A DNA stretch of 64,000 bases from Bacteroidales bacterium (lineage in GTDB: Bacteria; Bacteroidota; Bacteroidia; Bacteroidales; UBA932), in assembly GCA_017469845.1 (NCBI GenBank), contig JAFUFP010000049.1:1-64000 (forward strand), read 5' to 3'. A program made the position numbers and the translations under genes. Of the stretch, positions 46 through 13,842 are shown one piece after another. Each line of letters starts with the position of its first letter. Position 1 is the stretch's first letter. The notes beneath the pieces were generated by a model, which was not told the DNA's origin, searched no databases, and saw only the letters and a list, made by a program, of their open reading frames with translations.

Positions 46-442
46 ATGAAGATACACCCTCTACCTTTCAGCGGGTCTCCGTCCCGGTATAGGTTATTAC
101 GGGGATGAACTCACTGTCGACATAATGACCCGATACCTCGGTTTGGCGAAATTCTCCTCCGACCTTTCCCTTTCGAACGGCAGATGGGGCATCTACGTTG
201 AGGCGATTCCTCTTCTCAGTCCGTCGGTAGCGAATGTTACGGCTCAGCTTTCGTGGAGACTTCCGTTCGGAAGGATCAGCCCTTATCTGTTCCTCCAGTA
301 CCACTACGGATATGATGAGTCGCTTCGTGACTGCATGACGGTGGGCGGGCCTTCCATAAGTGATGACGGCACCGTTCCCTATGACAGGGCGGATTCCGCT
401 ATGCTCAGGTCGATGCTCCGCTTCGGGATAATGCTCAAATAG
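46..442 (+). pseudogene. Outer-membrane phospholipase A remnant (C-terminal part)
   Basis: The frame read from about position 50 encodes roughly 130 residues whose end resembles the last strands of outer-membrane phospholipase A (PldA/OMPLA): LQYHYGYDESLRD followed by a terminal LRFGIMLK strand, comparable with the family's QYFNGYGESLIDYN region and final beta-strand. The N-terminal part with signal peptide and the catalytic His/Ser strands is missing. A promoter-like element (23-30) and an ATG at 46 lie upstream, but the ATG opens a different frame that stops after 20 codons, so the promoter-proximal start is out of frame with the barrel. I infer an internal deletion plus frameshift. A shorter product from the ATG at 125 is possible but would be a barrel fragment. 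The family link rests on the C-terminal motif alone. Confidence 0.55.
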
Positions 443-512
443 AGGTCGGCGCCTTCCCTTTTGGACAATGTACGGTAAAAGTATTACCAACCACTCTTAA
501 AAGGTGGCAGAA

Positions 513-528
513 TCCGGGCAAGCCCGGA
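513..528. other. GC-rich hairpin in the 443-634 gap
   Basis: TCCGGGC-aa-GCCCGGA forms a 7-bp stem with a very short loop and no T-tract. It lies between the phospholipase remnant and the convergent lipoprotein gene. It may stop transcription weakly. Nothing else was recognised between 443 and 634. Confidence 0.35.
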
Positions 529-634
529 AGTAAACGAATCAATCAAATGCCAATGATGGAACCGTCTTTACTCTTGGCTGTCGGCATTGAAAAAGACAGA
601 GATTCTCAGTTGAAAATGCCAACGGAAAACGAAT

Positions 635-1264
635 TTAATCATGTCCTTTCACGGAAACCCAAAGGACCTTTTCATTATCAAGATCCAGCATCGCTCGCCA
701 GTATACATCTCCTCCATCAAGAGGAAATTGGAAAGAACGGCTCATCGGGTTTAACAATGGAGGCAGAGGAGGTAGTACGGTGGAGTCATCTTGATCATAG
801 GCAGGATACTCCTTATCTTCCAGGTCAGCCGTTTTTAGAAGGACAAAGTTCACGAAAACATAATTCTCTCCCTTTGGACCTTTCAGAAATGCATATTGCC
901 GAGCATAATTTCGTAGACCGCCTTCCTGAAACAAGTATCCTTCTTTGTCATAAGCCTGCTTTTCCAAAATAGTAGGGTATTCTTTCTGCAGAATAACTTC
1001 TGCTTTTCGTAGATTAGATAAGTTGGGACGGTATAGATGCGAACCTTTCATCAGATTCGGTAACATCCAATTCACAGCCAAAGTATCCACGAAAACATAG
1101 CCGATGACCGTTTTATCCTTGTCTCCCTTTTGAATATCGCAATAGCGGACAGGAAGGTTCGGTCCACTCGTCTCGGGCGGCCAAGAGTCATGCCCACTAC
1201 AAGCAACAATAAGCGCAGTTATGCAGAGGATGAGAAGAAAGGTTTCATGTGTTTTCATAGACAT
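635..1264 (-). CDS. Lipoprotein of unknown function
   Basis: A 209-residue protein with a type II signal peptide: a hydrophobic stretch at about 8-20 followed by the lipobox LIVAC with Cys22, so it is expected to be lipid-anchored and exported. The mature part has no motif I recognise; it contains a Pro-rich turn (LPPLPPLL) and ends in a possible beta-hairpin. A second ATG two codons in (1258) would give an equally good signal peptide. It sits 57 bp after the exported protein encoded upstream on the same strand and is probably cotranscribed with it. Base composition is more AT-rich than in the housekeeping genes further on, consistent with an accessory insertion. I do not recognise the family. 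Confidence 0.75.
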   Translation of the reverse strand: MSMKTHETFLLILCITALIVACSGHDSWPPETSGPNLPVRYCDIQKGDKDKTVIGYVFVDTLAVNWMLPNLMKGSHLYRPNLSNLRKAEVILQKEYPTILEKQAYDKEGYLFQEGGLRNYARQYAFLKGPKGENYVFVNFVLLKTADLEDKEYPAYDQDDSTVLPPLPPLLNPMSRSFQFPLDGGDVYWRAMLDLDNEKVLWVSVKGHD

Positions 1265-1321
1265 GGTATAAAATAGACTCTGATATTCTTCCTCAGAAGA
1301 AGGGGGATAATTGTTGCAGCG

Positions 1322-2134
1322 TCAGTAAATAATTGAGTGGAAAACAACACTCCTTTCCTTCGGGTCCCACTCGATAATATTCTGGGGGAGACGGAATAGG
1401 ACGTTCTGAAAAGAAAACTCTGGACTGAAAACTTGATCATAATCGAAATATAGGGGAAACATTCCGTCATCGAACAAGATGTATCGATTCGTCCTCCCGA
1501 TCTCCCATTCCGGCATACCGACATAAAAATACAACCAGATCTTACCGTCCATTTTAGTTAAGCGTACATATAGTTGATGCCAAAGCCGTTCGGGGAGGTT
1601 ATTGGATTTCGTACTTATCTCGTCATTAAGATAGTATACAATCTTTGTGGAGTCAGTTCTTGAGAAAACTGGAATCTCATTTATCTGGATTGTATTGCGT
1701 ATTCTCCGTTTCGCTTTGAAATGGATGGTTTTTCCGTGAAAAAGAACTGCATGTCTCATGATCAATCCATCCATGTGTCCGGCTGAACCAGGTAAGGAGA
1801 GAGACTGATCTTTAGTGAGAGCGTATGCATCATCGTAGTCTAAGACGACAGGGTAATAGTGGCTTTGAATCTGCAAAAAACGGTTGGATTGTCGAGCGAT
1901 GACGCTCCAACTATCATCACTTAATGTGGTGCAAGCTATGTAATAACCCCGTGATTCAGGTGAATGGTTTCCCATTTGGAAACAGACAGAGTCTTGAAAT
2001 TCACATGGAAGTGTCTGAATCCAATCTGCAACTTTTCTTTCGGTTGATCGGGGGACCTGATAAACGATAGGCTGTGAGTAGCTCGAAAAACTGAAAGAAA
2101 GGATAAGGGTTATGACTGAAAGCGAAAATCTCAT
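1322..2134 (-). CDS. Exported protein of unknown function
   Basis: I chose the ATG at 2134 because it begins a clean type I signal peptide (hydrophobic residues 3-16, then SFSSYSQ as the likely cleavage region). The frame is open upstream to 2185, but those residues are charged and precede the signal. The 270-residue product has no cysteine lipobox and no motif I know; the sequence is rich in Tyr, Phe, Arg and short beta-strand-like stretches, so a soluble periplasmic or surface beta protein is plausible. The lipoprotein gene at 635-1264 follows on the same strand. AT-rich codon use matches its neighbour and differs from most of the window. Function unknown. Confidence 0.7.
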   Translation of the reverse strand: MRFSLSVITLILSFSFSSYSQPIVYQVPRSTERKVADWIQTLPCEFQDSVCFQMGNHSPESRGYYIACTTLSDDSWSVIARQSNRFLQIQSHYYPVVLDYDDAYALTKDQSLSLPGSAGHMDGLIMRHAVLFHGKTIHFKAKRRIRNTIQINEIPVFSRTDSTKIVYYLNDEISTKSNNLPERLWHQLYVRLTKMDGKIWLYFYVGMPEWEIGRTNRYILFDDGMFPLYFDYDQVFSPEFSFQNVLFRLPQNIIEWDPKERSVVFHSIIY

Positions 2135-2195
2135 AATGCCAGGTAATAATGTGGTAAAGATAATCCTTTTTCTCTCACAGCCCAAACATTAATAA

Positions 2196-2321
2196 TTACA
2201 CAAATTCAATGACCGGGAACTATATCGTGCAGACAAGGAAGTCAAGCAGATTGCCGATGGATATTATGACGATCAAATCCGGAAAGTTGAAAACGGATAT
2301 GGAGGTGGAAGGTCGAGATAA
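2196..2321 (+). pseudogene. Possible C-terminal coding remnant
   Basis: This reading frame has no start codon in place and ends with TAA at 2319. It encodes about 41 residues of clearly protein-like, charged helical sequence (RELYRADKEVKQIADGYYDD, then a GYGGGRSR tail). It may be the surviving 3' end of a gene lost when the flanking accessory segment was acquired. I could not assign a family. The rest of the 2,135-2,485 gap shows nothing recognisable. Confidence 0.3.
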
Positions 2322-2485
2322 TGGAACATGAGGCGCTAGGATTCGGGCGATTCCTTCAGCAGTGAAGCGATTTGCAAGGGATTTTTAGTACAATCCGCAT
2401 TTGTGCATCTGACGGGAGGAAGAGTATTTCAATTGGAGCACTGCGATTCGGCATTTAAAGTCTTTAAATAAAAATTTATAACTTA

Positions 2486-2518
2486 TAATTGTACAATTAA
2501 AACAATTAGTTATATTTG
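2486..2518 (+). promoter_or_regulatory. Promoter and palindromic operator of the BlaI/M56 operon
   Basis: TATATTTG at 2511-2518 is a TAnnTTTG -7 element 16 bp before the start codon of the repressor gene. A perfect 14-bp palindrome, TAATTGTACAATTA (2486-2499), lies where the -33 element should be. The TGTACA core resembles the TACA/TGTA core of BlaI/MecI operators. Binding there would block sigma-factor access, so I infer autorepression by the BlaI-type protein just downstream. Confidence 0.65.
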
Positions 2519-2534
2519 CAAAAAAACGCACACC

Positions 2535-2894
2535 ATGAAACGACTGACGAAGAAAGAAGAGATTATTATGAATCATTTCTGGGAGAAGGGACCATTATTC
2601 GTGAGAGAACTTCGTGAACTGTATCCGGAACCCAGGCCACATATTAGCACACTGAGTACACAGGTTCGGATACTCCAGGAGAAGGGATTCATCGACCATA
2701 AATCTTATGGCCCCACATATCAGTACTACGCTATTATTACGCGCGAAGAGTACAAACAGCATTCGCTTATTGGGCTGATTGACGAGTATTTCAACCATTC
2801 ATATATCAACGTCGTTTCCGCGTTGGCGAAGGAAGAGAAAATAACGGTAGATGAATTGAAGGAAATCATCAAACTGCTTGAAAAGGAAAAATAA
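2535..2894 (+). CDS. BlaI/MecI/CopY-family transcriptional repressor
   Basis: A 119-residue protein of the length usual for the family. Residues 1-75 form the winged helix-turn-helix: MKRLTKKEEIIMNHFWEKGP, then VRELRELYP..PHISTLSTQVRILQEKGFIDHK, with recognition helix and wing in the usual order. The C-terminal third is the helical dimerisation segment. Family members dimerise on palindromic operators and are released by proteolysis triggered by a partner M56 membrane peptidase, here encoded 2 bp downstream. The operator at 2486-2499 is the likely target. The link to beta-lactams is not implied: in Bacteroidota this pair often controls unrelated exported proteins, and here no beta-lactamase gene is nearby. 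Confidence 0.93.
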   Translation: MKRLTKKEEIIMNHFWEKGPLFVRELRELYPEPRPHISTLSTQVRILQEKGFIDHKSYGPTYQYYAIITREEYKQHSLIGLIDEYFNHSYINVVSALAKEEKITVDELKEIIKLLEKEK

Positions 2895-2896
2895 AC

Positions 2897-4210
2897 GTGC
2901 TGTCCTTCCTGTTATATGAAAGTAAGGTAGCGCTGTCGCTACTGGTCTTGTACCTGCCCTTCCGCTTCTTTTTGAAGAAAGAGACCTTCCATAGGTTCAA
3001 TCGTGCGGTTCTGGTCGGGACGGCGATCCTGTCTTTCCTGATACCGTTGTGCATTATTACCATTCATAAGCCAATGGTGGCTCCGCCGGTGGTAGAGCCA
3101 AGCATTATTCCTGCGTTACTCAATCAAGATTCGGCAGTGCTTGAACCGGCTTCTGAACCATGGTGGCCGAAGGCTCTTGCTATGATATTCTTGACTGGCG
3201 CATCTTCCGTTCTGCTCAGATTACTTATCTCAACACTTTCCATCATCAAACTCATCCGACAAGGAGAATGTGTCAGAGAAGAGGACGGCTTCAGAATTAT
3301 AGTTTCCAACCGTGACATAGCCCCCCTAAGTTGGATGAATTGTATCGTTCTTTCCCGGGATGATTGGGAAGCTTCAAACGAATACATCCTGACCCACGAG
3401 AAAGCGCATATCAGATTCAACCATTCCGTGGAACTGTTGCTGGTTGATCTGATGTCGGTTCTCCAGTGGTTTAATCCCGTCATATGGATGCTTCGGGTCG
3501 ATTTGCAGGAAATCCATGAATATGAGGCAGACAACGCCGTCCTGCTGAGTGGTGCTAATCGCAATGAGTATCAGACTATTATCATGAGAAGAGCCGTTGG
3601 TAAGAAGGGCTATTCCGTGGCAAGCAGCTTTAATCACAGTATTCTAAGAAGCAGAATAACGATGATGCACCAATCCAAATCCCCCGTGATCAGGAAATTG
3701 CGGGTGCTTTATCTGCTACCTCTTGTTTGCCTAGGAATCAGCTTGCAGGCAAGGACTGTCTATGTCCAATCAGTGAGCGAAGGTGCCTTTACAGAGGAAA
3801 AAAGCGAGGCGATTCTGCAAGAAATCGTCGTGGTCAGATATGATGAACGCTCCGCCAGCCATGAGGAGATCAGGCACGGAGCTAATCTCGAACCCGTCTT
3901 GCTCACTGATGCCCTTGATGTTGATACTATGCCTTATTGTACGGAAAACTTCGCATTCTGGCTTAACGAGAGGTTGCTCTATCCGAAGGAATGTATGTGC
4001 GAAGGAACTGTTTGGGTCCGGTTTACGGTAGGAACAGATGGTCAAGTTAGCGATATCAAGGTTATTCACAGTATTTGCGAGGAACTTGATGATATCGTAG
4101 TGAAACTCATATCCAAGTCCCCGACCTGGGTCCCGGCGAAAAAGGAAGGCAATCCCGTAGCAGTGCAATTGATCCAACCTATCGAATTCCATATCAGAAC
4201 CATAGGATGA
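2897..4210 (+). CDS. BlaR1-type M56 membrane metallopeptidase with TonB-like C-terminus
   Basis: A 437-residue polytopic protein; the GTG at 2897 is 2 bp after the repressor stop, so the two are translationally linked. Membrane helices are predicted near residues 8-26, 38-57, 89-115 and 270-288. The zinc site is complete: H167-E-K-A-H171 with the downstream Glu210 in EYEADNAVL. This is the sensor-protease half of a BlaI/BlaR1-like circuit. Instead of a penicillin-binding sensor, residues from about 355 form a TonB C-terminal-like domain (YPKE, then GTVWVRFTVGTDGQV, then PIEFH). The gene overlaps the next by 4 bp. I infer that the periplasmic TonB-like domain contacts the barrel protein encoded in the same operon, either to sense it or to energise it. 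Confidence 0.9.
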   Translation: MLSFLLYESKVALSLLVLYLPFRFFLKKETFHRFNRAVLVGTAILSFLIPLCIITIHKPMVAPPVVEPSIIPALLNQDSAVLEPASEPWWPKALAMIFLTGASSVLLRLLISTLSIIKLIRQGECVREEDGFRIIVSNRDIAPLSWMNCIVLSRDDWEASNEYILTHEKAHIRFNHSVELLLVDLMSVLQWFNPVIWMLRVDLQEIHEYEADNAVLLSGANRNEYQTIIMRRAVGKKGYSVASSFNHSILRSRITMMHQSKSPVIRKLRVLYLLPLVCLGISLQARTVYVQSVSEGAFTEEKSEAILQEIVVVRYDERSASHEEIRHGANLEPVLLTDALDVDTMPYCTENFAFWLNERLLYPKECMCEGTVWVRFTVGTDGQVSDIKVIHSICEELDDIVVKLISKSPTWVPAKKEGNPVAVQLIQPIEFHIRTIG

Positions 4211-5199
4211 AAGCTAAATGTTTATTGACGATATCCCTTCTTTTTATGGCGATTAACTTCTGCCATGCACAGAGGGTTATGTCTGCGGAAGATGTGATCA
4301 GGTCTTCTGGAGGAAGGATATCTTTCTTTGAAGGGATTTACAGAGAAACCAGACCTCAATTCGTCAGTTGGAGGTTGTTCAATCCAGTTACCTTGGATGA
4401 ATCCAGGATTGTCGTCAAATATGATGTTGACATAAAACTGGATTCTCTATCTGAACAGAGAGTGAAAGACCAGGTACTTACACTCATCGGTCCCAAGATG
4501 ATCCTTAGCTACGGACTTTGGAATTGGAGAGAGTCCGTATCTGTAACAGCGTATTATAGCAAGAAGGACGAAAAACCTTATTTTGATTCTTTGGCCTCTG
4601 AATTTGGAGAACGGCCACGCGGCTATGTTGAAATGATCAACTGGTTCGTTTACCGCGACCTAAAACAAAGGAATATACTGAACAAACATGCCCTTCCTTT
4701 GAGAAGGAATTCCATAGAGTACACCGAACCTCTGCCCAAGATGTCCTGGGAGATACATGAAGAGACGAAAAGCATCCTTGGCTACGACTGCCAGAAAGCG
4801 GAGACCGATTTCAGAGGGCGGCATTGGACGGTCTGGTTTACGCCGGAGGTCCCGGTAGATTGTGGCTTGTGGAAGTTCTCAGGTCTCCCGGGCCTCATCA
4901 TGGAAGCCAGTTCTGCGGATGGCTTCTATATCTTCACGGCCGTGAGTATTGAGAACAGGGTGATGAAGATCCAGTCATATCCGAAAGTGGAAACAAATCG
5001 CCTGACGCGGGAAAAGTTCCGCGCGATGGAGAGGGCGGTTTACACCAACCCGATATCTGGAGGTGTTTTCGACCAGGAAAAAGGACAGGATTATATGATT
5101 GGTGCCCATATTACCGTCGGAGACCCTAAAGACACCGATACGAAGATATTCACGCCGAATACATATCTGGGTCTCTATTTTCCGATGGAACTTGAATAG
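4207..5199 (+). CDS. GLPGLI family exported protein
   Basis: A 330-residue protein with a type I signal peptide (MKAKCLLTISLLFMAINFCHA, cleavage before QR). The family-defining sequence GLPGLI is at residues 226-231, preceded by a typical conserved stretch (GYDCQKAETDFRGRHWTVWF, then a TPEVPVDCGLWKFS segment). Family members are periplasmic or surface-exposed proteins of unknown biochemical function, and they are often encoded beside TonB-dependent-receptor-like barrels, as here. The start overlaps the M56 peptidase stop and the stop is 6 bp from the next start, so it belongs to a four-gene operon. The link between this protein and the barrel is inference from context. Confidence 0.92.
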   Translation: MKAKCLLTISLLFMAINFCHAQRVMSAEDVIRSSGGRISFFEGIYRETRPQFVSWRLFNPVTLDESRIVVKYDVDIKLDSLSEQRVKDQVLTLIGPKMILSYGLWNWRESVSVTAYYSKKDEKPYFDSLASEFGERPRGYVEMINWFVYRDLKQRNILNKHALPLRRNSIEYTEPLPKMSWEIHEETKSILGYDCQKAETDFRGRHWTVWFTPEVPVDCGLWKFSGLPGLIMEASSADGFYIFTAVSIENRVMKIQSYPKVETNRLTREKFRAMERAVYTNPISGGVFDQEKGQDYMIGAHITVGDPKDTDTKIFTPNTYLGLYFPMELE

Positions 5200-5205
5200 C
5201 ACAGG

Positions 5206-7779
5206 ATGAATCATCGTGTTGTCATACTCATCACTCTCCTGACGTTGCCTTTCCGCTCCAATGCCCAGGTATATCCCTTCTCACTGAAGGGAAGGGTTAC
5301 CGATACATCTGGAAAAGGAGTCGATGGAGCCAACGTGATGCTCCGGAAGCCAGGAAGCACAGCCATGATTGGCTTTACCTTGAGCGAACCGGATGGGGCA
5401 TATTCCATCTCTGTCAATACCGAAGCGGATACTCTTCAAGTACTTGTATCCGGTTTCAACATCTCGTCGCATAACAGGACAGTAACAAGAAGTACAGGGA
5501 TAGCCAACTTTACGGTTTCCAACCAGCAACAGACAATTCGGGAGGCAAAAGTGGCCGCCGATCCGATAAAGAGGGGAGGCGATACGCTGACTTACTATGT
5601 CTCGCAGTTCAAGGAAGAAACGGACCGAAGCATCGGTGATGTACTGAAGAAGATGCCAGGAATTGAAGTGTCCTCAAGTGGAGGAATCAAGTACAACGGA
5701 AGAAGTATAAACAAGTTCTATATCGAGGGGCTGGACATGCTTGGGGGTAAGTACGGTATTGCCACCAACAATATCCAAGCCAGCGACATCGCCTCAGTGG
5801 AGATCTATGAGGGCCACCAGCCGATCCGCGTCCTTCAAGACTGGGTCAAGTCCGATGAAGCAGCCCTGAACCTCAAACTCAAGCAGGGGGCCAAGGGCAC
5901 CTGGAACGGGATACTTGAGATAGGCGGCGGATATGCTCCGGCGATGTGGACCGGCAGTTTTACCCCGATGATGTTCAGCAAGAACGTCCAGACAATTCTG
6001 ACTTACAAGACAAACAATACGGGCAATGATGTCGGGCAGGAACTGAAGTCGCAGTTCGGCGGTTTCGGTAGCATCCCGTCACTTGTCAGCTGTGTCTCTC
6101 CCCAAACTCCACCACTGGATGAAAGGTCGTGGCTGAGAAACAATATCCATGCAGTATCCGCAAACGGCATCCTGAAAATCAATGATGACTCAGACATTAC
6201 CGTCAAGACACACTACATCCACGATACACAGAACTCATCAGGAAGCACGAGAACCGAGTACTTCGTATCAGGGATGCCTTCCTTTACCGTAGAAGAGGCG
6301 ACAGGACTGAAGGATAAGTCCGATGAACTTGAGTTGGAATTGCAGTATCGGCTTAACTCAAAGAAGAGATACCTCCTTGATGAAATGTCTGTCAAGACAG
6401 AGAGAACCGAGGATTATGGTACGGTGCAGAAAGGAGGAACAGACATCAGCCAAACGGCCAGTCTCCCGTTCTTCAACGCGACGAACCGTTTTCAATATGT
6501 CAAGACATTCGGGAACTCTCAGATTACCGCCCGTTCAACAACGTCCTTCAGCAAGAGAGATTCATACCTGGACGTGACACCGAATCTTTATGGAGAAATA
6601 CTGGGAGCGCGGGAAACAGTAAGGCAGGATATAAGCTCGAAGAAGCTATATTCCACGAACAGCGTCTCGACTTCATTTAGAACCGGTGGATTGATTATCG
6701 GTTTGACCGCGCAAGGGAACTTTGACATAGAGTCTTTCAAATCCGAACTCGCGCCTGCGGATTCCATGCGTAATGATTTACCATGGAAAAGGTTTGATGC
6801 CAGGCTCGGAACCAGCTTGTCCAATCAGGCTGGGAGGTTTGATTTTGACTTGTCCATTCCGGTCAGCTACATCGTAATCAATGGAGAGGGGCGTCCTCTC
6901 TTCGATCCGAGCGTGTCTGCACGTTACAGGTTGAACCAGAGCCTCACTTTCAGAGCGTCCGCGAGTCAAGCATACTCGTTCTCCGGCCTGTACGACAGCT
7001 ATGGTGGATATGTAATGACCAACTACAGGAACATATCCTCTCGGGGCGGAAAACTCAACAAATCCGCCAACTCATCCGCCTCGTTCGAGATTTCCTATTC
7101 AAATGCGGTCAATTCATTCTTTGTCAACGGAAGTATTGCCTATTCAAAGACGGGCAATGAACTCACATATGGAACCATCTATAACGGGGACTTCACGACC
7201 GTCAAACAGTATGACATGCGCAATGAGAGCGATGTTACTGCCTTGTCCTTGAACGCAAGCAAACGCTTCCAGAGCATTTCCACCACAGTAAAGGCTGGAG
7301 TGGATGCGTCAGAATCACATTACCAGTATCTCCGCCAAGACATACTCATGCCTGTGACGAGGAGGACGCTTTCTGCGAACTGGGGTATTGATTCACGTTT
7401 GGGGCAGTCGATGTTGATTTCATATATGGGAAGGTTTTCTGACGGCGAGAGCCGGTTCGACGGCTCTTCCACGGCAGGCATCAAGACCATGAACCAATTG
7501 CTCTCTATGAGTTTTCTCTTGGGGCAGCATCTGATTGCGAAAGGATCTTTCCGCCACTACTATAATGACAGAAACGAGGGAGAGCAGAGGAATCTTTGCT
7601 TCGTCGATGCGGGGTTGAGCTATGTTTCAGGGCGTATGGAATACACCCTAAGTGCAAACAATCTTCTCAATACGAAGACCTACTCAACCACGACTTTCAA
7701 CACGAATACAATCTATTCAACAGTATACGAATTAAGACCGGTATCAGTCCTTCTCTCTATTAAGTTCAGTTTGAGATGA
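5206..7779 (+). CDS. TonB-dependent-receptor-like outer-membrane barrel
   Basis: An 857-residue protein: signal peptide (residues 1-20), a carboxypeptidase-regulatory-like beta-sandwich (about 24-105, with KGRVTDTSGKGVDGANVMLR), a plug domain (about 125-225, with TDRSIGDVLKKMPGIEV and FYIEGLDMLGGKYGIATNN), then a long beta-barrel to the C-terminus. It belongs to the outer-membrane beta-barrel families found with GLPGLI proteins rather than to SusC. It closes the operon that begins with the BlaI-type repressor. The transported substrate cannot be read from the sequence; no metallophore, haem or glycan gene is adjacent. The TonB-like domain on the M56 peptidase of the same operon could be its dedicated partner. 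Confidence 0.9.
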   Translation: MNHRVVILITLLTLPFRSNAQVYPFSLKGRVTDTSGKGVDGANVMLRKPGSTAMIGFTLSEPDGAYSISVNTEADTLQVLVSGFNISSHNRTVTRSTGIANFTVSNQQQTIREAKVAADPIKRGGDTLTYYVSQFKEETDRSIGDVLKKMPGIEVSSSGGIKYNGRSINKFYIEGLDMLGGKYGIATNNIQASDIASVEIYEGHQPIRVLQDWVKSDEAALNLKLKQGAKGTWNGILEIGGGYAPAMWTGSFTPMMFSKNVQTILTYKTNNTGNDVGQELKSQFGGFGSIPSLVSCVSPQTPPLDERSWLRNNIHAVSANGILKINDDSDITVKTHYIHDTQNSSGSTRTEYFVSGMPSFTVEEATGLKDKSDELELELQYRLNSKKRYLLDEMSVKTERTEDYGTVQKGGTDISQTASLPFFNATNRFQYVKTFGNSQITARSTTSFSKRDSYLDVTPNLYGEILGARETVRQDISSKKLYSTNSVSTSFRTGGLIIGLTAQGNFDIESFKSELAPADSMRNDLPWKRFDARLGTSLSNQAGRFDFDLSIPVSYIVINGEGRPLFDPSVSARYRLNQSLTFRASASQAYSFSGLYDSYGGYVMTNYRNISSRGGKLNKSANSSASFEISYSNAVNSFFVNGSIAYSKTGNELTYGTIYNGDFTTVKQYDMRNESDVTALSLNASKRFQSISTTVKAGVDASESHYQYLRQDILMPVTRRTLSANWGIDSRLGQSMLISYMGRFSDGESRFDGSSTAGIKTMNQLLSMSFLLGQHLIAKGSFRHYYNDRNEGEQRNLCFVDAGLSYVSGRMEYTLSANNLLNTKTYSTTTFNTNTIYSTVYELRPVSVLLSIKFSLR

Positions 7780-7861
7780 TGACAATCTGCACACAAATAT
7801 AGACACGTGTAGAACTCTGTTTGGGGATAAAAATGGGACATTATTTGGGTCACTCTATACG

Positions 7862-7897
7862 AAAAATCCCTCTCAGACTACTCTGAGAGGGATTTTT
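7862..7897. terminator. Bidirectional intrinsic terminator
   Basis: AAAAATCCCTCTCAG (7862-7876), a 6-nt loop, then the perfect complement CTGAGAGGGATTTTT (7883-7897). A/T tracts on both sides let it end both the BlaI/M56 operon from the left and the tRNA transcript from the right. Confidence 0.9.
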
Positions 7898-7898
7898 G

Positions 7899-7971
7899 TG
7901 GAGCATAGGAGAATCGAACTCCTGACCTTTTGAATGCCATTCAAACGCTCTACCAACTGAGCTAATACCCC
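7899..7971 (-). tRNA. tRNA-Ala (anticodon GGC)
   Basis: Read on the minus strand, 73 nt fold as a complete tRNA: acceptor 5' GGGGTAT pairs with 3' ATGCTCC (two G-U pairs), discriminator A, D-arm with AGCTCAGTTGGTAGAGC, anticodon stem TTTGA/TCAAA with loop ATGGCAT, and T-arm with GTTCGATTC. Loop positions 34-36 are GGC, so it reads the Ala codons GCC/GCU. CCA is not encoded. A TATATTTG -7 element lies just upstream. Confidence 0.95.
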
Positions 7972-7982
7972 GTTTGGTTCTG

Positions 7983-7990
7983 CAAATATA
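7983..7990 (-). promoter_or_regulatory. -7 element of the tRNA-Ala promoter
   Basis: TATATTTG on the minus strand (CAAATATA on plus), 11 bp upstream of the mature tRNA 5' end. The surrounding 7,972-8,049 sequence is AT-rich. Confidence 0.7.
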
Positions 7991-8049
7991 CGAAAAAATA
8001 TTATATTCGCATATTCTTCGATGAAAGTTATTCTTTTTTTCGTTGCGGT

Positions 8050-8418
8050 ATGAGTTTTTTGGGAAACATCCTTTGGCTTGTTCTCGGAGGCGCTTTGGTT
8101 GCCGGCATTTATGTCATCATCGGCCTTTTGTTCTGCATCACCATCATCGGGATTCCTTTCGGAGTCCAACTGCTGAAGTTGGCCGGATTGGCTTTGTGGC
8201 CTTTCGGGAAAGATGTCAAAACGAAGCCGGGTGAACCCGGATGCCTTTCTGTTGTGATGAATGTGCTGTGGATCCTTCTGGGGTGGTGGGAGATAGCCCT
8301 TGTTCACCTCTTCTTCGGAATACTGTGCTGCATCACCATCATCGGAATCCCTTTCGGAAAGCAGCATTTCAAGCTGATGCTTTTGGGTGCCACACCTTTC
8401 GGAGTGACATTCCAGTAG
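8050..8418 (+). CDS. YccF-family inner-membrane protein
   Basis: A 122-residue membrane protein with two YccF domains in tandem. Each has a hydrophobic helix followed by the signature CITIIGIPFG (residues about 35-45 and 96-105), with the spacer GKDVKTKPGEPG between them. Family members are small inner-membrane proteins found widely; a transport or envelope role is suspected but not proven. The first ATG of the frame is used. It converges on the DUF819 gene with an 11-bp gap. Confidence 0.93.
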   Translation: MSFLGNILWLVLGGALVAGIYVIIGLLFCITIIGIPFGVQLLKLAGLALWPFGKDVKTKPGEPGCLSVVMNVLWILLGWWEIALVHLFFGILCCITIIGIPFGKQHFKLMLLGATPFGVTFQ

Positions 8419-8429
8419 TGCCTTTCTCC

Positions 8430-9593
8430 CTAAAGTAAAGCAAGCAGGTGGTATATTCCAATACCCAGGTAATTGCCGAGGGCATAACCCATTATACCTG
8501 CGGTAAGGCCGGTAACCATCACTCCCTTGTTGTCCATCGCTTCAGATATGACCGGGACGAACGGGGGAGAGTTTATCAGCGAAACCGAAGTTATCACCAT
8601 GGTGTCGGCATCTATCTTCATAAGCTTGGAAAGAAGTGTGTGAATGAAGAGTGAACCGAACACGGATATTGACAGGAATCCGACCACCCTAGCACTCCCT
8701 TCAACGCTTATTTGGGAAAAGTCGGCCATGGAAGACACGACCATGCTGAATATGTAGATAAGATACATTCCGGCAGTTGAACCGCTCTCTTTGTCCTTTG
8801 GGAATCCCAGATATGACGCCGCGATCCCGAGGGTAGTCACCGACAGGATGAATACCATCATGAAGATGTCCTGCTCCGACAATGTGTCCAGATATGTCGC
8901 TACAAGGTATGATATTCCGACGATGACACCTGATATGGCGACTGACAAGATTCCGTCCCGTAAACCCTTTCCTTTCTTTTTTCCTCCGATGCCGTTGTCA
9001 CCGATTTCACCGGAATCTGTTCCTTCCATTTCACCCTTCGGCAGAATCTTCCTGAAGACCTTTATCCCGAATCCCAGCAGCGCCATCAGATATACGAAAC
9101 TCACCGCCATGTCCGCGGTGTTGGCGATTACAAAAGTTCCTTCATCCACATCAAGCATCCTCTGGATCGAGGCCATGTTCACCGTGCCTCCGGTGTAGGT
9201 TCCCGCCATCATCGCACCCAGTTTTACGCCCGCCTCAGGGTCTTCCGGAGTTGACATCCCTTTCCCGAGAATGAGATATGCCAGGATTACTGCCAAAAGA
9301 GCCGACAGAAATCCGCACCCGATCGCGAGGAGGGATTTCCCGGAACTCTTCCAGTTGATTCGGGAACTCATCAGAAGAAGAGGAATAGAAAGGGGAACGC
9401 ACACATTGCTGAGCGCCTCCTGAATCTCCCCATGCCCTTGGGGAAGAATGCCGGTGTTTCCGATGACCGCACCTAGAAGGTAAAGGATGAAAATCGGACC
9501 TATTTTTCCCAATGAGGGAACCCTCCTGCAGAGGAAGATCACCAGTGCGGGAGTCGCGATGAATAGTGCAACCGTTATGATAGTGCCGACCAT
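8430..9593 (-). CDS. DUF819 family integral membrane protein
   Basis: A 387-residue protein with about ten hydrophobic helices and a central charged loop (KGEMEGTDSGEIGDNG, about 185-215). Gly-rich motifs typical of DUF819 (YjcL-like) are visible: GTYTGGTVNMASI in the first half and SLINSPPFVPVISEAM in the second, one per inverted half. This arrangement suggests a two-repeat secondary transporter, but no substrate is established. It lies downstream of the Na+-pumping decarboxylase operon on the same strand, but a terminator hairpin sits between them, so it is probably a separate unit. Confidence 0.85.
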   Translation of the reverse strand: MVGTIITVALFIATPALVIFLCRRVPSLGKIGPIFILYLLGAVIGNTGILPQGHGEIQEALSNVCVPLSIPLLLMSSRINWKSSGKSLLAIGCGFLSALLAVILAYLILGKGMSTPEDPEAGVKLGAMMAGTYTGGTVNMASIQRMLDVDEGTFVIANTADMAVSFVYLMALLGFGIKVFRKILPKGEMEGTDSGEIGDNGIGGKKKGKGLRDGILSVAISGVIVGISYLVATYLDTLSEQDIFMMVFILSVTTLGIAASYLGFPKDKESGSTAGMYLIYIFSMVVSSMADFSQISVEGSARVVGFLSISVFGSLFIHTLLSKLMKIDADTMVITSVSLINSPPFVPVISEAMDNKGVMVTGLTAGIMGYALGNYLGIGIYHLLALL

Positions 9594-9633
9594 TAGGGGA
9601 AGATTGGGCGTTTGTGATGTCCGCTTTCAAAGG

Positions 9634-9664
9634 AAAAGGAGAGAACACCCGGTCCTCTCCTTTT
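9634..9664 (-). terminator. Intrinsic terminator after the decarboxylase operon
   Basis: AAAAGGAGAG (9634-9643) and CTCTCCTTTT (9655-9664) form a 10-bp stem. It lies 24 bp past the beta-subunit stop on the minus strand and gives a U-rich 3' side. Confidence 0.75.
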
Positions 9665-9687
9665 TCGAAAAAAGCTTTTTCCGTATA

Positions 9688-10830
9688 TTATCCGAGGAAG
9701 CCCAGAAGGATACCGGCAGCAACTGCGGATCCGATGACTCCGGCCACGTTCGGTCCCATGGCATGCATGAGAAGGTGGTTGCTCGGGTCGAATTCCCTTC
9801 CGACAACTTCAGATACTCGTGCGCTGTCCGGAACGGCGGATACACCGGCGTTACCGATGAGCGGGTTGATCTTGCGGCCTTCCTTGAGGAAGAGGTTGAT
9901 CAGCTTCACGAAGAGGACTCCGCAGGTCGTAGCGATGACGAACGACAGAAGACCGAGTCCGAAGATGAGGAGTGACCTTCCGGTGAGGAACTTGTCAGCC
10001 TGGGTGGAGGCACCTACGGTAAGACCGATGAGAGTCGTCACCACGTCAACAAGAGGACCTCTCGCGGTTTCGGCAAGACGGCGTGTGACGCCGCTTTCCT
10101 TGAGGAGGTTACCGAAGAACAGCATACCGAGGAGCGGAAGGCCCGAAGGTACGATGAAGGCGGTAGTGAGGAAGCCCACGATAGGGAAGATGGTCTTCTC
10201 CTTCTGGCTTACCTGACGGGGAGCGGGCATCCTGATGAGCCTTTCCTTCTTGTTCGTGAGAAGGAGCATGATCGGCCTCTGGATGACGGGCACCAATGCC
10301 ATGTAGGAGTAAGCCGAAACGGCGATGGCTCCCATCAGGTCCGGTGCGAGCTTGGAGGAGAGGAAGATGGCGGTAGGGCCGTCAGCTCCTCCGATGATTC
10401 CGATGGCACCGGCCTCGTTGGGAGCGAAACCGAAAGCGAGGGCGAGGAGATAGGCACCGAAGATACCCATCTGGGCGGCGGCGCCGATGAGGATCAGCCT
10501 CGGTTGCGAGATGAGGGCCGAGAAGTCCGTCATCGCACCGATTCCGAGGAAGATCAGAGGCGGATACCATCCCTGGCGGACACCCTGGTAAAGGATGTTC
10601 AGGACTGATCCGTTCTCATAGATACCGATCTGCATTCCGGGGAACATGGGGATGTTTCCCACGATCATACCGAAACCGATGGGCACAAGCAGCAGCGGTT
10701 CCCATTCCTTGAGAATGGCGACCGTTATGAATGTAATTCCGATGGCGATCATCGCGAGATTCTGCCAAGCGAAGTTGGCGAATCCCGTGAACTGCCAGAA
10801 TTGTTGCAGACTGCTGATTATCTGGTCCAT
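9688..10830 (-). CDS. mmdB: Na+-translocating methylmalonyl-CoA decarboxylase, beta subunit
   Basis: A 380-residue multi-pass membrane protein carrying the family signature GGADGPTAIF, plus the C-terminal NHLLMHAMGPNVAGVIGSA. This subunit decarboxylates carboxybiotin and couples it to Na+ export across the inner membrane. I place the start at 10830 (MDQIISSLQQF), 10 bp after the biotin carrier stop; the frame is open further upstream, but those codons lie inside the carrier gene. It is the last gene of the decarboxylase operon, and a terminator follows. Oxaloacetate decarboxylase beta subunits share this sequence; methylmalonyl-CoA is preferred because the alpha subunit is of the acyl-CoA carboxyltransferase type. 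Confidence 0.94.
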   Translation of the reverse strand: MDQIISSLQQFWQFTGFANFAWQNLAMIAIGITFITVAILKEWEPLLLVPIGFGMIVGNIPMFPGMQIGIYENGSVLNILYQGVRQGWYPPLIFLGIGAMTDFSALISQPRLILIGAAAQMGIFGAYLLALAFGFAPNEAGAIGIIGGADGPTAIFLSSKLAPDLMGAIAVSAYSYMALVPVIQRPIMLLLTNKKERLIRMPAPRQVSQKEKTIFPIVGFLTTAFIVPSGLPLLGMLFFGNLLKESGVTRRLAETARGPLVDVVTTLIGLTVGASTQADKFLTGRSLLIFGLGLLSFVIATTCGVLFVKLINLFLKEGRKINPLIGNAGVSAVPDSARVSEVVGREFDPSNHLLMHAMGPNVAGVIGSAVAAGILLGFLG

Positions 10831-10840
10831 CTGCGAAGAA

Positions 10841-11278
10841 TTAACCGATTGAAACGATGTCGGCTCCCTCAAGTACGGAGTCTCCCTTTGCGCAATGGAT
10901 GGCGGTGATTGTTCCGTCCTGGGTCGCTGAGATCTCATTCTCCATCTTCATCGCCTCGATGACTGCGACTTTCTGTCCGGCCTTCACAGCCTGACCTTCC
11001 TTGACGGATACCTCGATGATGACACCGGGAAGGGGAGAGGTGACTTTGACACCTGCTCCGGCGGCTTTGGGTGCTGCGGGAGCGGCTGCAGGAGCGGCAG
11101 CGGGAGCTGCGGCAGCGGCGGGAGCTGCTGCTACGGGAGCGGGTGCGGCTGCGGGGGCATTCTCCAGTTCCACCTGATATGAGGCTCCGTTGACGGTGAC
11201 GTCAGCGATTTTTCCCTCTATTGAATTGATGGCTACTGTGTATTCACCACCGTTGATCTTGAACTTGTACTCTTTCAT
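10841..11278 (-). CDS. mmdC: Biotin carrier subunit of the decarboxylase
   Basis: A 145-residue biotinyl carrier. Residues 1-40 form a small folded N-terminal segment, residues 41-70 are an almost pure Ala/Pro linker, and residues 76-145 are the biotinyl domain with EAMKMENEI; Lys111 is the biotinylation site. The carrier moves CO2 from the carboxyltransferase to the membrane beta subunit. The Ala/Pro linker is typical of swinging carrier arms in these complexes. It is encoded between the gamma-type and beta subunits in a tight operon. Confidence 0.94.
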   Translation of the reverse strand: MKEYKFKINGGEYTVAINSIEGKIADVTVNGASYQVELENAPAAAPAPVAAAPAAAAAPAAAPAAAPAAPKAAGAGVKVTSPLPGVIIEVSVKEGQAVKAGQKVAVIEAMKMENEISATQDGTITAIHCAKGDSVLEGADIVSIG

Positions 11279-11311
11279 ATTGCGTTTATTTTTTATTCTG
11301 TTGATGGGTTC

Positions 11312-12268
11312 CTATTTCTTTTTCGTTGAGGGAAGTCTGCGGAATGTCTGTCCGTGGGTCTTCCATGCGCCTTCCGAAGGCTTGATCGTTATCGTGTAGC
11401 TCTCCGTGTCGTGGACACTCTCACTGAGGTACAGGTGGAGGGCTGTGGCGATGGCCGCGTAGACTTCACCGGAAGTGTCCAGGTCGAGGGCCATTCCGAT
11501 GGCGGCGGCGACTTCAGGAGTGACTGTACCGGGCTTTGCGGTGGTCTTCTTGGGGAGAAGAGCCGCGGCCTGGGCCTCCTTCTTTTTCTTTGCGGGGCGC
11601 TCGAAGAGTACCCAGAAGAGGAACCAAAGGATGGCGAGTGCGCAGAAGACGACACTGATGCTGGTAAGGGCCAGAATGAATCCGTGGGGGTCGGTCCTGG
11701 CCATCTTCTGGGCGTTCGTCTCGGCGTTGGCGTCACCGTTCATCGAACCGGGAGTCGGGGATGAAGGAGTGGGGTCGAGAACGAAGTTCATCTTCTTGTT
11801 GTCGTTCGCGTACTTGCTGAGGGATTTGCCGGCGGGTAGAGTTGTGGGAACGGCTATGGAATCCACTATCGTCCTTCCGTCGTTGCTCACAAGGTAGATT
11901 GTCGAGCCTTTCCTTATCTTGAAATTGAGGTAGAATGTACCTTGGGTGTTGTCACCGCTGCCGTGGAAAACCACCACCTGGCGTTTTCCGATCTGGGCTG
12001 CGAGGTCATTCTTCGATATGATGCTCTTTTTGAGGTTACTCTTGTCGTCTGTGAAATAGCAACCTCCCATATTCACGGTTCCGTAGGATGTGTTCGTGAC
12101 TTCCACCCATCCGTGCCTCTGGCCGTAGTCATCCACGAGGGAGAGGCTGTCGGGATCCGCCATAACCTCGGTTATCTTGAGGTCGATGACGTTCTGTCCC
12201 ATGGCCTGAATTCCACCAAGGATGAGGAGGGTCAGCGGGAAGAGTATTCTCTTTGTTATCCTGTTCAT
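11312..12268 (-). CDS. Lamin-tail domain fused to decarboxylase gamma (OadG-like) subunit
   Basis: A 318-residue protein with a signal peptide (residues 1-24, ending QAMGQ), a lamin-tail (LTD) beta-sandwich at about 26-145 (ITEVMADPDSLS, then GWVEVTNTS, then VVFHGSGD), a membrane helix at about 198-222 (ILALTSISVVFCALAILWFLF) and a cytoplasmic tail rich in Lys and Ala. The helix plus tail matches the small gamma subunit (OadG) that anchors Na+-pumping decarboxylases. The LTD would face the periplasm. Its position between alpha and biotin carrier genes supports a role in the complex. The C-terminal segment (about 250-305) looks like a further short domain after the anchor. What the LTD does is unknown. 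Confidence 0.88.
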   Translation of the reverse strand: MNRITKRILFPLTLLILGGIQAMGQNVIDLKITEVMADPDSLSLVDDYGQRHGWVEVTNTSYGTVNMGGCYFTDDKSNLKKSIISKNDLAAQIGKRQVVVFHGSGDNTQGTFYLNFKIRKGSTIYLVSNDGRTIVDSIAVPTTLPAGKSLSKYANDNKKMNFVLDPTPSSPTPGSMNGDANAETNAQKMARTDPHGFILALTSISVVFCALAILWFLFWVLFERPAKKKKEAQAAALLPKKTTAKPGTVTPEVAAAIGMALDLDTSGEVYAAIATALHLYLSESVHDTESYTITIKPSEGAWKTHGQTFRRLPSTKKK

Positions 12269-12279
12269 CTGCTGTCGGG

Positions 12280-13842
12280 TTAGAGGGGAAGATTGTCGTG
12301 TTTCTTGGCGGGGATGTCCTGCTTCTTGCCGGCGAGCTGCTCAAGAGCGCGGATTACGCGGAAACGGGTGTTCCTCGGTTCGATGACATCGTCGATGTAA
12401 CCCTTCTGGGCTGCCTGGTAGGGATTGTTGAAGAGCTCGTCGTATTCGTCCTTCTTCTCCTGGGCGATCTTGGCTTTCTCTTCGGGAGTCTCTGCGGCCT
12501 TGAGGTCCTTTGCGTAGAGGACGTTGACTGCTCCGTCAGCACCCATCACGGCGATCTGTGAAGAAGGCCATGCGTAGTTGATGTCTCCGCGGAGCTGCTT
12601 GCAGCTCATCACGATGTGCGCTCCACCGTAGGACTTGCGGAGGGTGACGGTGACCTTGGGAACGGTAGCTTCACCGTAAGCGTAGAGAAGTTTCGCGCCG
12701 TTGGTGATGATCGCGCCGTACTCCTGCTGGGTTCCGCAGAGGAATCCGGGAACGTCGACGAGGGTGACGAGAGGAATGTTGAAGGCGTCGCAGAAGCGTA
12801 CGAACCTGGAAGCCTTCCTCGAAGCGTTGATGTCGAGAACACCCGCGAGCATGTTGGGCTGGTTGGCGACGACACCGACGCTCCTTCCGTTCATGTGCGC
12901 GAATCCGACGATGATGTTCTTGGCGAAGTCTTTGTGAACCTCGAAGAACTTTCCGTCGTCGACAATGCTCCTGATGACATAGTACATGTCGTATGCCTTG
13001 TTGGGATTGTCGGGAACTATCTCGTTGAGGGTGTCGTCGACCCTGTTGTAGGGATCAGAAGTGGGAACGACGGGGGCTTCCTCCATGTTGTTCTGGGGAA
13101 GATAGGAAAGGAGCTCCTTGATGGTTGCGATACCTTCCTGCTCGGAGTCGGCTGCGAAATGGGCCACACCGCTCTTGGTTGCGTGCACGCTGGCTCCACC
13201 GAGCTGCTCCTGGTTAACGTCCTCTCCCGTTACGCTCTTAACGACGGCGGGACCGGTGAGGAACATGTAGGAGGTGTTCTTCACCATGAGGGTGAAGTCA
13301 GTGAGGGCGGGGGAGTAGACCGCACCGCCGGCGCAAGGTCCGAAAATACCGGAAATCTGGGGAACCACGCCTGAAGAGAGGATGTTCCTCTCGAAAATCT
13401 CACCGTAACCGGCGAGGGCGTCGATGCCTTCCTGGATACGTGCTCCGCCGGAATCGTTGAGTCCGATGCAGGGGGCACCGTTGCGGACCGCCATGTCCAT
13501 AACTTTGCAGATCTTCTCGGACATGGTCTTGGAAAGGGAACCTCCGGATACCGTGAAATCCTGTGCGAAAACATAGACGAGCCTTCCGTCGATGGTTCCG
13601 CATCCTGTTACGACACCGTCTCCGTCAAAGTGCTGCTTGTCCATTCCGAAGTTCGTGCAACGGTGCTGTACGAACATGTCGTACTCCTCGAAGGAGCCTT
13701 CGTCAAGAAGGAGGGCGAGCCTTTCCCTGGCAGTGAGCTTTCCTTTCTGGTGCTGTGCCTCAATTCTTTTTTCGCCTCCGCCTTTGAGGGCCGATGCCCT
13801 GCGTTCTACCAGGCGGGCGATGTTATCCTGCTGTATACTCAT
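12280..13842 (-). CDS. mmdA: Methylmalonyl-CoA decarboxylase alpha (carboxyltransferase) subunit
   Basis: A 520-residue acyl-CoA carboxyltransferase of the propionyl-CoA carboxylase beta/MmdA family. The N-terminus ([20 protein letters not shown]), the oxyanion-hole Gly-rich stretches ([13 protein letters not shown] and [11 protein letters not shown]) and the [10 protein letters not shown] segment are all present. It transfers the carboxyl group from (S)-methylmalonyl-CoA to the biotin carrier, forming propionyl-CoA. The start at 13842 ([11 protein letters not shown]) matches the usual family N-terminus; an ATG ten codons upstream also exists. First gene of the operon, with a TATATTTG promoter 55 bp upstream. 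It implies succinate-to-propionate fermentation with energy conserved as a Na+ gradient. Confidence 0.95.

Follow-up and report, generated by a model that had tools for sequence, protein, structure and literature searches.

A probable BlaI/BlaR1-type switch controlling a GLPGLI–barrel outer-membrane module in a Bacteroidales genome

BlaI–M56 pairs in which the protease carries a TonB-like or plug-like sensor half are common in Bacteroidota, and our literature search turned up no work on the signals they detect. In the genome of a gut Bacteroidales bacterium, such a pair shares an operon with an outer-membrane barrel and a GLPGLI protein, a family for which we know of no function. The locus, studied within a 64,000-nucleotide stretch of one contig (hereafter the window), raises two questions: what turns on the GLPGLI–barrel module, and does the receptor interface act as the sensor? 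The operon, matching operators in trans and the deduced operator sequence provide a concrete set of targets that makes these questions testable.

The answer we favour, with a probability of roughly two in three, is a derepression switch of the BlaI/BlaR1 type that controls the GLPGLI–barrel module. In such a switch, BlaI would bind an AACTA/TAGTT-type operator that covers the -33 and -7 boxes, and would repress its own operon. Four helices would anchor the M56 protein in the inner membrane, its zinc peptidase facing the cytoplasm and its TonB-like domain lying in the periplasm. On binding a periplasmic ligand, this domain would activate the peptidase, which would cut BlaI and release the operon, so that the GLPGLI protein and the barrel are made. 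Repression, periplasmic signal, cleavage and induction are all modelled here on BlaR1/BlaI biology.

Architecture of the operon and its protease

The BlaI, M56–TonB_C, GLPGLI and plug-barrel genes span positions 2535–7779 on the plus strand, with junctions of 2, -4 and 6 bp (Table 1). A preliminary description had already recognised a tight four-gene unit, and profile matches bear out its reading frames and families. In the barrel, the CarboxypepD_reg match (5.3e-07) falls 2 bits below the family cut-off and the Plug match (6.1e-05, 23.9 bits) lies exactly at it; a sequence search of the PDB at E 1 found no relative of the protein. The GLPGLI protein has a signal-peptide-like N-terminus and the GLPGLI motif, as read from the translation, and its sole PDB match, to PNGF-II, is marginal. 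As its structure prediction, made from three near-identical sequences, reached a pLDDT of 36.7, we claim no fold for it. Two MAG loci (L011 and L012) contain the same operon with the same gene junctions and an M56 protein 97% identical to that of the window. Against these homologues, dN/dS is 0.11–0.52 for all four window genes, the BlaI values reflecting 3–4 changes only, and the four genes thus appear to be kept by purifying selection. Upstream, at 635–2185 on the minus strand, lie two divergent genes of 209 and 287 aa, the larger of which starts like a secretion signal; they have no Pfam or NCBIfam match above cut-off and hardly any relative among the first 81 loci collected.

Table 1. Features of the operon and of the proteins it encodes, with positions in the window.
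Feature	Position	Strand	Basis
Predicted BlaI-type operator, three half-sites	2486..2512	+	Sequence comparison; pattern TAGTTnnATAACTA-N7-TAGTTA
Operator half-sites TAATT, AATTA, TAGTT	2486-2490, 2495-2499, 2507-2511	+	First two form the 14-bp palindrome 2486-2499
-33 element TTG, within left dyad	2489..2491	+	Read from sequence
-7 element TATATTTG	2511..2518	+	Read from sequence; meets third operator half-site
BlaI/MecI/CopY-type repressor, 119 aa	2535..2894	+	PF03965 (Penicillinase_R) 1.4e-25
Membrane metallopeptidase of the M56 family (BlaR1-type), 437 aa, ending in TonB_C	2897..4210	+	Peptidase_M56 2.3e-13
HEKAH zinc motif, residues 167-171	3395..3409	+	H167, E168, H171 strictly conserved across 66 homologues
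EYEAD motif, residues 208-212, probably completing the zinc site	3518..3532	+	E208, D212 strictly conserved across 66 homologues
Low-confidence periplasmic linker, residues 288-339	3758..3913	+	pLDDT < 50
TonB_C domain, about residues 350-435	3944..4201	+	PF03544 8.6e-12; Foldseek match 6i97
GLPGLI family protein, 330 aa	4207..5199	+	TIGR01200 1.4e-41, 142.7 bits vs curated cut-off 50
Outer-membrane barrel of 857 aa; N-terminal part with a carboxypeptidase-regulatory-like domain and a plug	5206..7779	+	PF13620, PF07715, A3 profile
Probable terminator (long stem, T run) in common with convergent tRNA-Ala (7898-7971, -)	7862..7897	.	Read directly; not called by terminator scanner

The M56 protein has four hydrophobic segments (residues 1–19, 38–56, 93–111 and 270–288). 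Based on these and on the analogy with BlaR1, the zinc domain is predicted to be cytoplasmic and the C-terminal domain periplasmic. In Foldseek searches, the model of the protein (mean pLDDT 75) matched BlaR1 structures (8exq, E = 3.0e-07; 8exr, TM 0.64; also 8exp), and its C-terminal part matched the TonB C-terminal domain in the FoxA complex (6i97_D, TM 0.70, E = 9e-4) and TonB in the TbpA complex (9dc4_T, TM 0.71, E = 0.06). Judged by this model, the periplasmic domain truly adopts the fold of a TonB C-terminal domain, in agreement with the TonB-like sensor half described initially from the sequence.

As in the staphylococcal BlaI/BlaR1 and MecI/MecR1 systems, a Penicillinase_R repressor adjoins a four-helix HExxH M56 protease, and the zinc site of the window protein is intact. 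However, BlaR1 senses with a penicillin-binding domain; because TonB_C replaces it in the window protein, this is not a BlaR1 that senses beta-lactams, although its architecture suggests that it works in a BlaR1-like manner. The output differs as well, being beta-lactamase for BlaI/BlaR1 and the GLPGLI protein and barrel in the window operon. The TonB energy transducer shares the C-terminal fold, but its single N-terminal, ExbB/ExbD-coupled anchor is absent, and four helices and a protease precede the domain instead. Other Bacteroidota M56–TonB fusions, annotated as M56 family metallopeptidase or TonB family protein, have the same architecture and the same BlaI neighbour, whereas the linked output of the window protein is the GLPGLI–barrel pair. 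For these fusions and for GLPGLI function, we found passing mentions in the literature and no functional study. In the paralogue L095 of the window's own genome (C68, 4701–6713) and in L013 (8001–9989), TonB_C is followed by an ExbD-like domain (below cut-off in L013), so that two periplasmic parts of the TonB machinery are fused to one protease. Paraprevotella xylaniphila (L028, 8001–11385) encodes tandem duplicate M56–TonB_C genes behind a single BlaI.

A predicted operator over the promoter

The preliminary description had placed the operator on a palindrome at the -33 region. The palindrome is indeed perfect and covers the -33 element, but it is too short, as the predicted operator extends to position 2512. 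The -33 element lies at a distance from the -7 box that we take to suit Bacteroidota promoters. Allowing up to 2 mismatches, the palindrome matches the window only once; perfect 14-bp palindromes are not rare per se (n = 2 in the 64 kb window), and the palindrome alone is therefore not significant. When up to 3 mismatches are tolerated, the longer pattern TAGTTnnATAACTA-N7-TAGTTA has one match in the window (2486–2512) and was found in 0 of 100 shuffles.

The pattern follows a motif of Bacteroidota BlaI promoters. In 70 non-redundant BlaI upstream regions from the collected Bacteroidota loci, the dyad AACTA-N5-8-TAGTT is present in 49 (0.35 in shuffles), TAGTT-N3-6-AACTA in 28 (0.37 in shuffles) and the -7 box TAnnTTTG in 53 (7.4 in shuffles), and the right half-site often overlaps this box. 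Moreover, the window operator aligns with TAGTTGCATAACTA-N7-TAGTTA upstream of L013, the closest homologue outside such operons, at 27 of 35 positions (TAGTTGCATAACTAAAAAAATTAGTTACCTTTG in L013, TAATTGTACAATTAAAACAATTAGTTATATTTG in the window). Given the promoter motif and this alignment, the palindrome is best read as the left dyad with its arms symmetrically changed from TAGTT/AACTA to TAATT/AATTA, and a symmetric change is the behaviour expected of a selected dyad. Both 97% homologues retain the arms but carry TAATTGTCCAATTA, so that the centre of the left dyad is free to vary.

In sequence, the regulator's operon thus has a predicted dyad operator across its own promoter, as in the staphylococcal pairs. 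The half-sites differ, being AACTA/TAGTT in the Bacteroidota BlaI promoters and TACA/TGTA in the operators of staphylococcal BlaI and MecI. An operator of the staphylococcal type, TACAnnTGTA, was ruled out for the Bacteroidota loci, as it occurs in 3 of 93 upstream regions. Upstream of the related operon L089, no operator was recognisable.

Recurrence in one operon and at separate loci

Among 100 genomes of the window's family, 34 contain GLPGLI and 69 contain M56 genes, and in nine of them, including that of the window, the two lie on the same strand a few kb apart. All eight further genomes (six of genus g22 and two of g17) have the BlaI–M56–GLPGLI–barrel arrangement; in two g22 genomes an extra gene separates M56 from GLPGLI, which is M1-peptidase-like in the one scanned. 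The co-occurrence that the preliminary description had proposed to check thus recurs in cis and, in two genomes, in trans (see below). Outside the family, an order-level search of 119 genomes returned a single weak case, G133, in which the gene after M56–TonB_C is weakly GLPGLI-like and no barrel accompanies it. On the M56 tree, the operon label needs four changes, at least three of which are forced by well-supported branches. The window M56 groups with L013 and L095, neither of which adjoins a GLPGLI–barrel pair, and members with and without M56 are intermixed in the barrel and GLPGLI trees, although long branches leave exact placements in these trees unsure. GLPGLI and barrel genes also form a unit of their own: of the 71 such barrels in the window's family, 54 are preceded by a GLPGLI gene within 500 bp and 63 within 3 kb, and only 9 have an M56 gene nearby.

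Judged by the operators, the same wiring appears between unlinked loci. In the window's own genome (3.66 Mb), the AACTA-N5-8-TAGTT dyad occurs at five places, among them upstream of a BlaI–M56 pair with two TonB_C stretches on contig C2 and of an unlinked GLPGLI–barrel pair on C63; the two promoters are copies of each other (163 of 169 bases identical, 96%). Another barrel gene, on C26, is preceded by a third copy that has diverged (76% over 114 bp); at this locus (L167, G000:C26:56715-56822), the dyad has one mismatch (AACTAAAATTAATCGTT) and the barrel downstream measures about 990 aa. In a second genome, G003, a near-identical double operator, AACTAAAAAAAATAGTTGTATAACTAATnnnnTTAGTTAnATTTG, precedes BlaI–M56–TonB_C on C12 and a GLPGLI–barrel pair on C10, with no further occurrence in that genome. 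These operator matches in trans are the strongest evidence for the barrel module as a putative target of the switch. They also qualify the view of the operon as self-contained, which is correct locally, but in these two genomes matching operators appear to connect separate loci in the same wiring.

Standalone GLPGLI–barrel pairs do not generally carry the operator: of the 57 GLPGLI upstream regions tested, only that of G003 has the operator (0.31 in shuffles). With 56 regions lacking it, control by the switch is a minority wiring. Since the wiring returns in relatives, both within single operons and between separate loci with matching operators, a proteolytic switch that controls the barrel is likely. 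We consider this a new form of BlaI/BlaR1 regulation that is real and conserved; its parts, the predicted topology, the operator motif and its conservation, and the repeated link of BlaI–M56 to GLPGLI–barrel in cis and trans can all be read from sequence.

Peptide clusters and candidate signals

GLPGLI–barrel genes are also found in clusters for ribosomal peptides. In G003 and G004, such clusters include double-glycine precursors (TIGR04149), a maturase (TIGR04148), a pseudo-rSAM protein (TIGR04150) and peptidase-containing ABC exporters, and the GLPGLI–barrel pairs of L179, L180, L182 and L183 are embedded in these TIGR04149/TIGR04148 RiPP clusters, suggesting that GLPGLI–barrel forms the outer-membrane step of peptide traffic. 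All genomes with TIGR04148 (n = 11) also encode GLPGLI, with p about 2e-6 under independence, which the relatedness of these genomes violates. Barrels of pfam14905 have been noted in Bacteroidetes clusters by a survey of graspetide loci (PMC8939145). The frequent presence of the pairs in RiPP clusters makes a role in peptide handling or movement across the outer membrane plausible. In GG-samocin type clusters of Bacteroidota (TIGR04148/TIGR04149), the pairs accompany a radical SAM enzyme, double-glycine precursors and peptidase-containing ABC exporters, whereas the window operon contains no precursor, maturase, exporter or other biosynthetic gene; a pattern search found no double-glycine precursor near it, and the window's genome has no TIGR04148 maturase. 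GLPGLI gains a firmer context, with a plug-barrel partner, a frequent place in peptide clusters and, in some cases, a proteolytic repressor above it. In a separate locus (L090, G083:C199:4000-20000, 312–13705), a GLPGLI–barrel pair is clustered with two YcaO genes, an ABC transporter and an M48 peptidase.

What the switch would respond to can be guessed from these clusters: because they so often include GLPGLI–barrel pairs, the most likely ligand would be strand-like or a peptide in the periplasm, either a substrate peptide or the barrel itself when unassembled or engaged. Direct sensing of the outer membrane is possible. Two other readings address the ligand as well and overlap with the switch itself, so that the probabilities given to the three do not add up to one.

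The first, which we hold as a tentative alternative, is that the domain senses envelope damage, misassembled outer-membrane proteins or, as BlaR1 does, a cell-envelope drug, with GLPGLI–barrel as one effector and without direct contact to its own barrel. BlaI–M56 pairs of Bacteroidota precede many unrelated genes, including those for TPR proteins, an esterase and a lanthipeptide cluster, and this variable output behind a constant switch would suit a stress response. However, the repeated, tree-independent pairing with GLPGLI–barrel in cis and trans is more specific than general stress predicts.

The second takes up the circuit of the preliminary description: the TonB-like domain would dock directly on the barrel, at its TonB box or plug, and engagement of the barrel would set off the peptidase, so that the outer membrane signals with positive feedback. 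The TonB fold with its matches to TonB bound to FoxA and TbpA, the plug and N-terminal domain of the barrel, and a disordered linker of about 50–60 residues that could bridge much of the periplasm are consistent with docking. Furthermore, the accessory domains in 66 M56 homologues (TonB_C, n = 38; Plug, n = 13; ExbD, n = 4; CarbopepD_reg_2, n = 3) form a sensor vocabulary that fits a TonB-receptor theme. We still regard docking as unlikely. In the six g22 operons, M56 ends in a plug-like fragment (LVIVDGKE...IGTISVLKD...YG.KA.NGVIIVETK; Plug model above cut-off in two of three scanned) instead of TonB_C, and profile comparison found no hidden TonB_C in the C-terminal parts of these six proteins. 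In L089, TonB_C begins about 13 residues past the last membrane helix; so close to the inner membrane, it could reach a plug in the outer membrane only if the N-terminal domain of the barrel or GLPGLI bridged the gap. Given the plug-like fragments and this short spacing, direct contact between TonB_C and the plug is unlikely to be the mechanism common to all these operons. Most M56–TonB_C genes have no barrel nearby, and inspection of the barrel alignment by eye revealed no canonical TonB box in the stretch from the N-terminal domain to the plug.

A broader version, in which Bacteroidota BlaR1-type proteases with TonB_C, plug-fragment or ExbD sensors generally dock on barrel receptors and report engagement to the repressor by cutting BlaI, seems doubtful. 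If true, it would be an anti-sigma-free counterpart of cell-surface signalling. Like FecA–FecR–FecI, it would couple an outer-membrane receptor to transcription through a periplasmic docking domain and proteolysis, but the window operon encodes neither a sigma factor nor FecR, its barrel has CarboxypepD_reg and Plug only and no STN domain, and the proposed cleavage of a repressor would replace that of an anti-sigma factor.

Finally, a generic BlaI–M56 pair might precede the GLPGLI–barrel pair by coincidence, which the independence of the latter module would allow but which is very improbable given nine cases in 100 genomes against about 0.2 M56/GLPGLI pairs expected by chance (our estimate from the counts listed above), the overlapping and 6-bp gene junctions and the matching operators in trans.

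A BlaI–M56 pair is also found at the head of a class I lanthipeptide-like cluster in the window's own genome (L097, C48:6000-20000, 1795–7969). This cluster encodes a LanC-like protein, a glycosyltransferase, Lant_dehydr_N and Lant_dehydr_C, and a proteolytic repressor switch thus apparently governs a RiPP cluster here.
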